From NCBI RefSeq assembly GCF_029888045.1, contig NZ_JARXRN010000025.1:278368-342367 (forward strand): 64,000 nucleotides of DNA, in the 5' to 3' direction. Below, one piece after another: positions 53,888 to 56,630 of the stretch (positions are counted from its first letter, which is position 1; the number at the start of each line of letters is the position of its first letter). Below the pieces are notes generated by a model. It saw nothing but the letters and a program-made list of their open reading frames with translations. It was not told where the DNA came from and did not search any database. Both the position numbers and the translations under genes were made by a program. Origin of the DNA: Luteimonas rhizosphaericola (GTDB lineage Bacteria; Pseudomonadota; Gammaproteobacteria; Xanthomonadales; Xanthomonadaceae).

Positions 53888-55309
53888 CTACAGCAGCGGA
53901 TCGGCCAGTCGCGCGATGCCTTCGCGGCTGCGCTGCCAGGCGGGGCGGCGGGCCCACGTCGCGGCGTCGAGGTGGTCGGCGTCGGCCAGGTAGTCCGCTT
54001 CGATGCCGCGCATCCTCGCCACCACGTCGCGGTCGTAGCAGAGCATGCCGATCTCGGCGTTGAGCGCGAACGAGCGGATGTCGAGGTTGATCGAGCCGAC
54101 CAGGGCGATCTCGTCGTCGACGCTCAGATGCTTAGCGTGGAGGAAGTGCGGCCGGTACAGCGCGATCCGCACGCCCGCCGCCAGCAGTTCGGCGTAATAG
54201 GACGCCTGCGCCCACGCGCTCAGACGCTGGTTGTTGCTGCGCGAGAGGATCAGCTGCACCTCGACCCCCGACAGCGCCGCGATCCGCAGCGCGCTCAGGG
54301 TGGCGTCGTCGGGCACGAAGTACGGCGTGACCAGCACCAGCCGGTGGCGCGCGAGGTGGATCAGCGCATTCACGGCGTCGCGGGCGTTGGCGAACGGATA
54401 GGCCGGCCCGCTGGGCAGCAACTGGGTGGCGATGTCGGCATCGTGCACCGGCGAGGTCGGCGCCACATCGAGCCGTGCGCCGGTCTCGATGAACCAGTCG
54501 CTGGCGAACACGCCCTCGAGGTGGCCGACCACCGGGCCCTGCACGCGGGCCACCAGTTCGCGGTTGGGGACGCCGCGGATGAAGTCGGCGTCGGCCAGGT
54601 TCTGCGAGCCGATCCAGCCGGCGCGGTTGTCGATCACCGCGACCTTGCGGTGGTTGCGCAGGTCCATGCGTCCGCTGCGGCGCCAGCGCAGGCCACCGGG
54701 CAGCATGTCCTGCACCTGGACTCCGGCCGCGGACAGCGGCTTGCGATAGCGCCGCAGGCCGCGCTTGGCGCCGACCGCGTCGAGCAGCAGCCGACACTGC
54801 ACGCCGCGCGCCGACGCACGCGCGAGCGCGGCCGCCACCACGTCGCCGACGGCGTCGTCGAACATCAGGTAGTACAGCAGGTGCACGCGTTCGCGCGCGG
54901 CGTCGATGTCGGCGACCAGCCGCCGCAGCGCGTCGTCGTAGCCGTCGAGCAGCTCGACCTGGTTGCCGTGCGTGGCCATGAAATCGCCCAGGCATTCGAC
55001 CAGCGGCACCATCTCGGTGTCGGCGCCGCCGGGCGCGGGCGTCCAGCGCTGGTCGGCCAGCGGCGCCTGCTCCTCGCGGATCACCTGCGAGGCCAGCCGC
55101 TGGCGCGCGATGCGCTCGCGCGACAGCCACGGATGGCCGAGCAGCAGGTACAGCGGCAGGCCCAGCAGCGGCAGGAAGAACACCAGCAGCAGCCAGGCGC
55201 GCGCGGCGCCGGGCGTGGTCCGGGTGGGGATCCAGGCGAGCGCGACGATCCGCACCAGCCAGTCGACGACCAGCAGCCACAGGCCCAGGTTGAGATCGGG
55301 CAGCGTCAT
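53888..55309 (-). CDS. cls: Cardiolipin synthase (phospholipase D superfamily)
   Basis: A 473-residue membrane enzyme that condenses two phosphatidylglycerols, or uses phosphatidylethanolamine, to make cardiolipin. Two N-terminal hydrophobic segments (about residues 8-25 and 37-57) precede two PLD motifs: NHRKVAVIDNRAGWIGSQN and HAKHLSVDDEIALVGSINLD, both with intact H-x-K-x4-D. The start at 55309 gives MTLPDLNLGLWLLVVDWLVR. Cls A-type architecture fits best. Confidence 0.93.
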   Translation of the reverse strand: MTLPDLNLGLWLLVVDWLVRIVALAWIPTRTTPGAARAWLLLVFFLPLLGLPLYLLLGHPWLSRERIARQRLASQVIREEQAPLADQRWTPAPGGADTEMVPLVECLGDFMATHGNQVELLDGYDDALRRLVADIDAARERVHLLYYLMFDDAVGDVVAAALARASARGVQCRLLLDAVGAKRGLRRYRKPLSAAGVQVQDMLPGGLRWRRSGRMDLRNHRKVAVIDNRAGWIGSQNLADADFIRGVPNRELVARVQGPVVGHLEGVFASDWFIETGARLDVAPTSPVHDADIATQLLPSGPAYPFANARDAVNALIHLARHRLVLVTPYFVPDDATLSALRIAALSGVEVQLILSRSNNQRLSAWAQASYYAELLAAGVRIALYRPHFLHAKHLSVDDEIALVGSINLDIRSFALNAEIGMLCYDRDVVARMRGIEADYLADADHLDAATWARRPAWQRSREGIARLADPLL

Positions 55310-55465
55310 CGGCCGATTGTGCCGGCTCGGGTGCGGGTGCGTCAGTGGCGATCGCCCTGATGCCGGGGCCGCGACCGGGTGGAGCCATGCGCCGCCATGC
55401 ACCTGGATCTGCGCTCTGGCGGCGGTTCCGCCGCCGAAGGCAGTGGAGGACCGAAGGGATGAGCC

Positions 55466-55692
55466 GTGCCGTGCGGCCGGGGGCCGAGGCGAGCGCGCAT
55501 GGATGGCGCGCGCCCGAGTCAGGGCAGGAGCCCTGACCGAGGGAGAGCGGCCCCCGGCCGCCACGGCACAGCGTCCGTCCGACGCCTTCGTCTTCGCTTC
55601 CTCAGGGATGGAGCTTCCGAAGACGCGACTAGGCGGGCGCGCGCGGGTCGATGACGGCCGACCCGTGGATGGACCTCGGCACACCCCTCGAC
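55466..55692 (+). ncRNA. Candidate structured RNA with GGA-exposing loops
   Basis: Arms 55466-55486 and 55548-55569 pair over 21 bp with one bulged C, closing a three-way junction. Inside are hairpin A (GCGCGC at 55493-55498 with 55506-55511, loop ATGGATG) and hairpin B (TCAGGGC, loop AGGA, GCCCTGA at 55519-55536). Hairpin C follows (CGTCTTCG 55589-55596 with CGAAGACG 55618-55625, inner CTC-AGGGATG-GAG), then hairpin D (GTCGA 55647-55651/TCGAC 55688-55692 and GCCGA/TCGGC inside, loop with GTGGATGGA). All four loops show GGA on the plus strand, the CsrA/RsmA target. No promoter or terminator on this strand is clear, so a repeat element is equally possible. Confidence 0.4.
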
Positions 55693-55752
55693 AGGCGGAC
55701 GCATGCAATGGGGGCGCGGGATGGCCGTGTTTCAGCCACTGACTCGGCTACG

Positions 55753-55776
55753 AAAAGGCCCGCCTTGCGGCGGGCC
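55753..55776 (-). terminator. Rho-independent terminator after rpmG
   Basis: On the minus strand GGCCCGCC, loop GCAA, GGCGGGCC is followed by TTTT. The 8-bp GC-only stem is perfect and the GCAA loop is a stable GNRA tetraloop. It lies 62 bases past the rpmG stop and should end the rpmB-rpmG transcript. Confidence 0.85.
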
Positions 55777-55838
55777 CCTGGACCCCGGCCTGCGCGGGGG
55801 TGACGCGATGTCGGCTGCGCTGCGCGCAGGTCAATGCG

Positions 55839-56003
55839 TCACTTGATCTTGCCTTCCTTGTACATCACGTGCTTGCGGACGACGGGATCGTACTTCTTGA
55901 TCTCCATCTTGCCGGGGGTGTTCTTCTTGTTCTTGTCCGTGGTGTAGAAGTGGCCGGTGTTGGCCGACGAAATCAGACGGATCTTGTCGCGCTTGGTTGC
56001 CAT
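55839..56003 (-). CDS. rpmG: 50S ribosomal protein L33
   Basis: A 54-residue basic protein beginning [20 protein letters not shown] and ending [11 protein letters not shown], the full length of bL33. It has no cysteines, so it is the zinc-independent (C-) form. It follows rpmB by 13 bases on the same strand, the usual rpmB-rpmG pair. Too short for most automatic frame listings but unmistakable. Confidence 0.97.
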
Positions 56004-56016
56004 GACTCTCTACTCC

Positions 56017-56253
56017 TCAGACCTTCTCGCCGCGCTTGCGCAGGTCGGCGAGCACGGCGTCGATGCCGTTCTTGTCGATGGTGCGCAGGGCAGCCGTGGA
56101 AACGCGCAGCTTCACCCAGCGGTTCTCGCTGGCGACCCAGAACCGGCGCTCGTGCAGGTTGGGCATGAAGCGGCGGCGGGTTTTGTTCATCGCGTGCGAC
56201 ACGTTGTTGCCGGTCGTCGTACGCTTGCCGGTGACTTGGCAGACTCGGGACAT
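56017..56253 (-). CDS. rpmB: 50S ribosomal protein L28
   Basis: A 78-residue protein starting [20 protein letters not shown] and containing [14 protein letters not shown], typical for bL28. Only one Cys (residue 5) is present, so the zinc ribbon is not formed. It is the first gene of rpmB-rpmG, with a predicted promoter about 190 bases upstream. Confidence 0.97.
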
Positions 56254-56630
56254 TGCACACCTCGAAAGTGTCATGGTGCCCCCCTTGGCCAGGGAGGCGG
56301 CGGCCCCGGCGGGCGCTGGCCACCAGGGCCGGCACCTGCCACGCAATACGGGTGTTCGGGCTCGCCGGACGGGGGGCGGGATCGCGTTCCCGGCCGGTCC
56401 GTGCCAGGGACACGACGGTCCCGGGCGCAGCGAGCCGGGCATTATGCCCGGCAGCGGGGCTGTGGACAAGTCGACCCCGGGACAGGCATCGGCGGCCCGG
56501 CGGCGGCCGTCGGCCGTCGCCCCGGGCCTGGCCTGCCGCCGGGGTGGGCGATGCCGGTGCGGTCCGCGTCCGCGGGACCCGGACCGGCGTCCCATGCGGT
56601 GGACGGCGCAGCCCGGGCGGCCCGGTCGCC
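56254..56630. other. 377-bp leader and control region upstream of rpmB
   Basis: There is no protein gene here. The promoter and palindrome at 56434-56469 lie in the middle, giving rpmB a leader of about 180 bases. The rest (56470-56630) follows the stop of the CoA-ligase/GNAT gene and is GC-rich with no clean terminator that I could identify. Confidence 0.65.
56434..56469 (-). promoter_or_regulatory. Predicted sigma-70 promoter of rpmB-rpmG overlapped by a 19-bp palindrome
   Basis: On the minus strand a TTGTCC -35 (56464-56469) is separated by exactly 17 bases from a CATAAT -10 (56441-56446). The -10 sits inside the perfect palindrome GCCGGGCAT-T-ATGCCCGGC (56434-56452). The promoter match is 4 of 6 and 5 of 6. 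The palindrome could be a repressor site or form a hairpin at the transcript start. Confidence 0.65.

Follow-up and report, generated by a model that had tools for sequence, protein, structure and literature searches.

Does the gap between cls and rpmG hold an RNA that binds CsrA/RsmA, or does it hold a copy of an undescribed repeat? Both possibilities were raised by a sequence-only reading of the window, the whole 64,000-nt stretch of Luteimonas DNA analysed here, which lies on contig G000:C17 of a 3.9-Mb genome. The two genes, named from a reading of their translations, are on the minus strand (rpmG at 55839-56003 and the cls start codon, as read from the sequence, at about 55307-55309), and the copy described below sits between them. 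The analysis suggests that its hairpins are one half of a spreading, often paired repeat and not a lone RNA.

Structure of the copy between cls and rpmG

The core, 55458-55584, is real and goes beyond chance. In the MFE fold a 21-bp stem (55466-55486 with 55548-55569) encloses two hairpins, HP1 and HP2 (Table 1), just as had been described from the letters. The fold of 55440-55600 has a z of -6.5 and none of 200 shuffled sequences was equally stable. The two GGA are spaced 23 nt apart. On the plus strand, 55458-55586 contains two GGA hairpins with a stem of at least 6 bp, compared to a shuffled mean of 0.14, and 4 of 300 shuffles reach this number; the whole of 55400-55776 contains three (reached by 8 of 300 shuffles). 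In 55587-55776 there are three GGA hairpins with stems of at least 4 bp (62 of 300 shuffles reach this), one with at least 6 bp (73 of 300) and one with at least 8 bp (18 of 300), the last being an additional hairpin around 55719. Compared to the consensus, the HP1 stem of the window copy is short of one C, which makes its loop one base longer.

Table 1. Features of the repeat copy in the window
Feature	Position	Strand	Basis
Type A unit of the dispersed repeat	55458..55584	+	R1 match of 102.8 bits; own-genome blastn matches; GGA loops on + strand
Outer stem, 5' arm	55466..55486	+	MFE fold; helix covariation, double changes in 19/22 pairs
Hairpin 1 (HP1), loop ATGGATG (consensus ANGGAU hexaloop), GGA 55501-55503	55493..55511	+	Fold, alignment
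CGAG ... CGAG on either side of hairpin 2, perhaps a tandem sheared G.A motif	55514..55541	+	Reading of letters; conserved columns 88-91 and 196-199; tandem GAs reported for a TwoAYGGAY stem (PMC4333381)
Hairpin 2 (HP2), loop AGGA, GGA 55527-55529, A-GGA type without N	55518..55537	+	Fold, alignment
Outer stem, 3' arm, one bulged base	55548..55569	+	MFE fold; covariation
3' tail AGCGTCCGTCCGACG (family consensus GGCGTCCnTCCGAAG), outer end in paired copies	55570..55584	+	Alignment

Four GGA-loop hairpins had been counted in this gap. HP1 and HP2 stand, but the third (AGGGATG) and the fourth (GTGGATGGA) have contiguous stems shorter than 6 bp. Nor do these two belong to the same array, as they are outside the repeat; the blastn matches in the own genome cover 55456-55586 only. 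No sigma-70 promoter was found on either strand of 55300-55900 in a strict consensus scan, which agrees with the earlier statement that the GGA strand has none (0 sigma-70-like sites). The companion statement, that this strand has no U-run terminator, is nearly but not wholly right because the scan of 55300-55900 gave one weak terminator-like site on the plus strand, at 55571-55585, in the 3' tail of the repeat. In the window copy this tail has a 5-bp hairpin followed by CTTCGTCTTC; other copies have TCCGAAG in the tail and need not form the hairpin. The rpmG terminator is a clear U-run hairpin followed by TTTT at 55757-55776 on the minus strand.

Copies, covariation and the strand that folds

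A blastn search with 55380-55800 gave 15 matches in the own genome, the query itself and 14 others within query positions 77-207 (55456-55586). Among the loci compared, 55587-55745 matched at its own locus only. The repeat unit is about 130 nt, with a long outer stem that closes hairpins with ANGGAU and AGGA loops. Model R1 is based on an alignment (A1) of 11 copies, two of which are type B, a form with ANGGA-type loops in both hairpins. At E 0.01 R1 gave 18 rows in the own genome, two of them the reverse strand of others, and thus 16 places; this is a lower bound (150 candidates were scored), and a long-form copy, L006 998-1206, was missed. The E-values of R1, and of model R2 below, are rough as calibration was short. 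R1 matches were found in 25 of 61 genomes. Counting the own genome, 24 of these are among the 37 genomes of the genus, and the remaining one is among the 24 that represent further genera of the order. Thirteen genomes of the genus had no R1 match and the highest count was 35 rows. A degenerate type-A core pattern, with 81 stretches listed, also occurs in records named Pseudoxanthomonas, Silanimonas, Vulcaniibacterium, Thermomonas and Lysobacter as well as in Luteimonas. With at least 16 places in the own genome and 24 of 37 genomes of the genus, the repeat half of the "undescribed repeat" alternative is confirmed, and the search for copies elsewhere in the genome and in relatives, which had been proposed to separate RNA from repeat, came out on the repeat side. 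For 35 of 93 copies the nearest relative was another copy of the same genome (8.3 expected), which indicates repeated amplification; best within-genome identities reach about 0.96 and no copy is shown to be fresh.

The stems of these copies covary. RNAalifold on 11 own-genome copies gave 45 pairs, 26 with compensatory double changes. In 35 type-A copies (alignment A4, 35 of 108 rows picked as type-A high scorers) 97.8% of cells were paired versus 81.7% after shuffling, and double-changed cells numbered 197 versus 50.1 +/- 5.8. Both sides had changed in 27 of 40 pairs. Slid versions of the type-A structure never exceeded 12 pairs or 30 cells. The loops are kept. The letters of the HP1 loop in 105 distinct copies are A (103/105), N, G (104/105), G (104/105), A (103/104) and T (102/105), and the N and the inner stem letters vary. 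The GGA of HP2 is conserved in 92/102, 100/102 and 94/100 copies, letter by letter. These counts come from alignment A3. Having been aligned to R1, it is biased towards the structure of that model, and one reverse-strand row and one partial row are among its 105 distinct rows. Scattered copies without conserved loop GGA had been named as the case that would speak against a CsrA/RsmA-binding RNA. The copies are indeed scattered, but this case does not hold because GGA is kept in the loops of both HP1 and HP2.

Which strand folds? Mismatches in the outer stem were counted in 98 copies, after one reverse-strand row and six copies without CANGGATG had been dropped. The copies from other genomes have 140 G-T and 10 A-C mismatches in an alignment that scores mismatches alike; 66 of 83 have more G-T and 2 of 83 more A-C. 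The own-genome copies have 22 G-T and 3 A-C. The excess belongs to the outer stem, the counts being 9 versus 5 for HP1 alone and 8 versus 3 for HP2 alone. Since G-T far outnumbers A-C, and the counts would swap on the opposite strand, the GGA strand is the one that folds single-stranded. The asymmetry fits RNA and ssDNA alike and does not discriminate between them.

Inverted pairs, sites and neighbouring genes

Many copies lie close to another. Among 137 copies in six genomes (two reverse-strand rows of the own-genome R1 search left out) there are 29 neighbour pairs less than 600 nt apart, and 58 copies are in close groups. Of these neighbours, 28 are arranged minus-then-plus, with 5' ends facing and 3' tails outward, and one pair runs in the same direction. 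The gaps of the 28 inverted pairs are 9-345 nt, with a median of 67. Many pairs have outer ends like CTTCGGA...TCCGAAG, the partner is often type B, and the fuller paired form spans about 320 bp or more. An autonomous copy with a gene between two units would show as successive R1 matches 600-8000 nt apart, and the six genomes gave none.

The site itself differs among relatives. G065 is identical (100%) over 55838-56260 and 90.6% identical over 54200-55446, and it lacks the core; all that is left is GGCACGGCGTCCGTCCG, a stretch that resembles the end of the stem and the tail. At the cls-rpmG site G075 has a full pair, B(-) and long-form A(+), and G029 has a single copy in the opposite orientation. 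R1 units were found in 4 of 29 relatives' loci tested (L104, L110, L124, L125), with the cls side matched only for L104 and L110. Given these differences in presence and orientation, the element seems to come and go at this site, and the window copy seems to be a remnant standing alone, probably a slightly decayed solo half. At another locus, L060, the pair has one orientation in G030 and G011, is inverted in G008 and is another mosaic in G024; all four have some form of the element, and this locus gave no target duplication or clean empty site. The repeat is thus present in some genomes and absent from others and has copies at non-orthologous sites, as is general for a mobile element.

A CsrB/RsmZ-like sRNA gene specific to the gap between cls and rpmG would have explained two ANGGA-type loops in a stable structure. 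It is very improbable given at least 16 places in one genome, a near relative (G065) without the core, R1 units in just 4 of 29 relatives' loci, no promoter found and hairpins 3 and 4 not included. On the multiple copies and the missing core in G065, a single-locus sRNA was ruled out.

Some further observations concern these loci. A hairpin-rich module of about 80-90 nt (GGGTGAGC...GAACGCC-hairpin...GGACCGC) lies exactly at the GGA loop of HP2 (that of HP1 in L186) and points the same way as the unit around it. It is found at L188 868-951(-) and 1158-1241(+), L186 831-924(-) and 1074-1156(+), L005 1962-2044(+), L006 1053-1135(-) and L104 1031-1105(+). In G011 a module of about 80 nt is in both HP2 loops of a pair that G030 has without it. 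Parts of the module are also dispersed alone in the own genome (14 matches), a repeat nested in the loops of a repeat. Compared to L060 of G030, an orthologous site, the whole pair of L187 (G008) is flipped relative to its flanks, by in-place inversion or independent insertion. In L067, at about 600-1000 (G022), a pair is seemingly within a palindrome, with GTGTGGGCT before and AGCCCACAC after it (by eye), perhaps a terminator split by insertion. Relatives without the element at the window site (L100, L102, L107, L116) have other repeats beside rpmG, e.g. GGATCCCCGC..TTCGCGGGGATGAC units (by eye), as if this were a general landing zone.

Gaps that hold the element are 31 convergent, 26 tandem and 2 divergent, compared to 4, 17 and 6 among the remaining gaps of these loci and 3, 20 and 6 among those of the window, with genes called by GC3-based guesses of our own. 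Of 105 copies, 12 overlap a called ORF; for the window copy, one of the 12, the cause is a cls ORF called too long at its start. A 3'-end stabiliser role has been proposed for REP sequences. Could the element likewise stabilise RNA at the 3' end, or end transcription, so that the strength of the stem counts and the loops do not? The bias away from divergent gaps and the very stable folds are in line with this. Such a role is nevertheless unlikely, as stem letters are replaced pairwise and the loop GGA stays, the strand asymmetry is unexpected for a stem used from either side, and no U run follows the stem except at the one weak site of the window copy.

The copies could also have no role as RNA. 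A purely DNA-level mobile element, REPIN/BIME- or MITE-like, would have ssDNA hairpins recognised by a transposase or HUH enzyme, with GGA as the recognition bases of the enzyme and the likeness to CsrA sites coincidental. This account is seriously possible, if a little short of probable. Dispersal, inverted pairing and mosaic structure are all expected from it, the strict scan of 55300-55900 found no promoter, the G-T excess fits ssDNA too, and solo copies show no sense bias: in tandem gene order 9 are sense and 11 antisense (by the same gene calls), which gives no sign of selection for sense transcripts. Two points count against it. One is that the loop pattern (A fixed, N free, GGA fixed, then U, directly on the stem) is the high-affinity Csr/Rsm rule given in print. 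The other is that Y1_Tnp (PF01797), the sole enzyme family examined, does not track copy number: seven genomes of the genus with 8-35 repeat matches have none (G008, G009, G011, G016, G018, G024, G029), and seven with PF01797 have no R1 match (G001, G004, G007, G010, G023, G034, G035). A RAYT/Y1 transposase was therefore rejected as mobiliser. The family would have been spread as DNA by an enzyme not found in this search for the one family PF01797.

Known REP, REPIN and BIME sequences (GTAG- or CGTC-tagged, RAYT) are similar to the repeat in being intergenic, dispersed and palindromic, with inverted pairs and mosaic forms. However, the repeat is a unit of about 130 nt with three helices, in contrast to one short hairpin, and its copies do not follow Y1_Tnp. 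According to PMC3733652 CGTC REPs have an 8-9 bp stem and a loop of 4-5 bases. The tail of the repeat has CGTC, but an outer stem of about 21 bp and two hairpins misfit these sizes, and a CGTC-tagged REP was discarded.

TwoAYGGAY and a possible role of RsmA

To our knowledge, TwoAYGGAY has been an orphan RNA since 2010. Like the repeat, TwoAYGGAY (RF01731, clan CL00106) encloses two A(N)GGA-loop hairpins in an outer stem and has a CGAG-type internal loop, and its matches are multi-copy and often in inverted pairs. In contrast, type A has a short AGGA hairpin 2, and the window copy has no score in RF01731. Rfam also types TwoAYGGAY as "Cis-reg", whereas copies of the repeat avoid divergent gaps. 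The ATGGAT of HP1 fits AYGGAY, the AGGA of type-A HP2 has no Y, and in type B both loops fit. PMC2864571 gives TwoAYGGAY as RNA "y" and cis-reg "n", from human gut, gamma-Proteobacteria and Clostridiales, and PMC4333381 describes it as a predicted CsrA-binding sRNA with tandem GAs in the stem. No account of TwoAYGGAY as a dispersed inverted-pair repeat was found in titles, abstract openings and passages (without the supplement of PMC2864571), and none of this Luteimonas repeat in titles, abstract openings and passages.

At gathering score Rfam has no match anywhere in the window. RF01731 gave no match to 55380-55800 up to E 10; two type-B copies score 28.6 and 30.1 bits, below its gathering score of 43 bits. 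The RF01731 threshold is exceeded in 6 of 61 relatives (three from the genus) and in 15 of 369 genomes of the class, for which copy numbers are lower bounds (7 candidates scored per genome). The wider repeat family is nevertheless similar to RF01731 by model. Of 40 RF01731 loci, R1 matches 17 in both place and strand. R2, built from the 35 type-A copies only, does so for 21 at E 0.01 and misses 19; among the 21 are 14 of the 30 loci from the class sample, which are outside the order. The best R2 matches outside the order are L153 (3.9e-9), L130 (4.3e-9), L150 (1.2e-8) and L151 (1.8e-7).

TwoAYGGAY loci are paired as well. An Rfam rescan of ten loci found five with two RF01731 matches over threshold, with 5' ends facing in L127, L131, L151 and L154 and 3' ends facing in L150. 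Among RF01731 neighbours in the class sample, 4 have 5' ends facing and 1 has the same direction; in the relatives 4 have 5' ends facing, 4 have 3' ends facing and 2 have the same direction (one overlapping). Inverted pairing is thus common and the 5'-facing rule is not universal. In two genomes of the genus (L031-L033; G031:C34, G031:C1, G031:C12, G021:C15) RF01731 inverted pairs have 3' ends facing and gaps of 222-304 nt, the reverse of the type-A rule.

Could RsmA bind such a unit? According to PMC4005645, affinity is high for an ANGGAX hexaloop placed directly on a stem and falls when the N is left out or bases are added to the loop. PMC7652899 gives RUACARGGAUGU as the SELEX sequence and CAGGA(U/A/C)G as the CsrB motif, and states that very stable stems may disfavour CsrA. 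HP1 fits both ANGGAX on a stem and the SELEX sequence at the level of its letters. By these rules HP1 is the stronger predicted site and HP2 the weaker, and the HP1 of the window copy would be weakened by its extra loop base. The own genome has an intact rsmA/csrA with a normal-looking RsmA sequence (MLILTRRVGETLMIGD...). The presence of csrA hardly discriminates: 39 of 39 genomes with the element have the gene, as do 14 of the 16 others that were sampled. Among known RNAs, the CsrB/RsmZ/RsmY-type sRNAs are like the repeat in their A(N)GGA hairpin loops, and RsmY is in the same Rfam clan as RF01731. The repeat differs from them: each unit has two sites, the copies are dispersed and paired, the scan gave no promoter and Rfam has no match in the window. 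Part of the original suggestion of a CsrA/RsmA-binding RNA survives, as models from the repeat match TwoAYGGAY loci, whose CsrA binding is predicted in print; a CsrB/RsmZ-type sRNA gene with its own promoter does not.

The best explanation, and a probable one, is a non-autonomous dispersed element that is structured as a single strand and whose RNA would offer two RsmA sites. The unit at 55458-55584 would be a half-unit of a non-autonomous repeat on the TwoAYGGAY design, with its outer stem, two A(N)GGA hairpins and CGAG/CGAG internal loop. In the fuller form two units make up an inverted pair, 5' ends facing, mostly downstream of genes. Because the pairs are inverted, read-through from either side would put one unit in sense. 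An RsmA dimer could then grip HP1 of the sense unit (ANGGAU on a stem, the high-affinity type) together with its HP2 (AGGA, the lower-affinity type), going by the letters and the published rules. The window copy is antisense to both neighbours, which, like the lack of a promoter in the strict scan and the 9 sense and 11 antisense solo copies, is neutral or weighs against an RsmA role. With one sense unit in a transcript from either side, the reading preferred here is a DNA-dispersed element with RNA that RsmA may grip. An RsmA role is favoured by the loop identity (N free, A and GGA fixed), the two sites 23 nt apart and the normal-looking RsmA; as predicted from sequence, this step is the least certain part of the explanation and is put forward tentatively. 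If it is right, the scattered copies would work as decoys for RsmA or as tags of 3' ends.

For TwoAYGGAY, multi-copy and often inverted-pair occurrence shifts the question from one sRNA gene to copy number and spread. The family is an unusually rich natural data set, with tens of copies in some genomes, compensating stems and fixed loops, and the strand-asymmetry comparison shows that the GGA strand folds, as RNA or ssDNA. A more speculative and rather doubtful idea is that TwoAYGGAY may be, instead of a lone sRNA, the working half of a self-spreading inverted-pair element across Gammaproteobacteria, which would place ready-made RsmA/CsrA sites 3' of many genes and serve as a CsrA decoy that is mobile and distributed. 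If this were true, a global regulator could be retuned by copy number. If RsmA binds, the number of repeat copies would tune a global post-transcriptional regulator in a heritable way.
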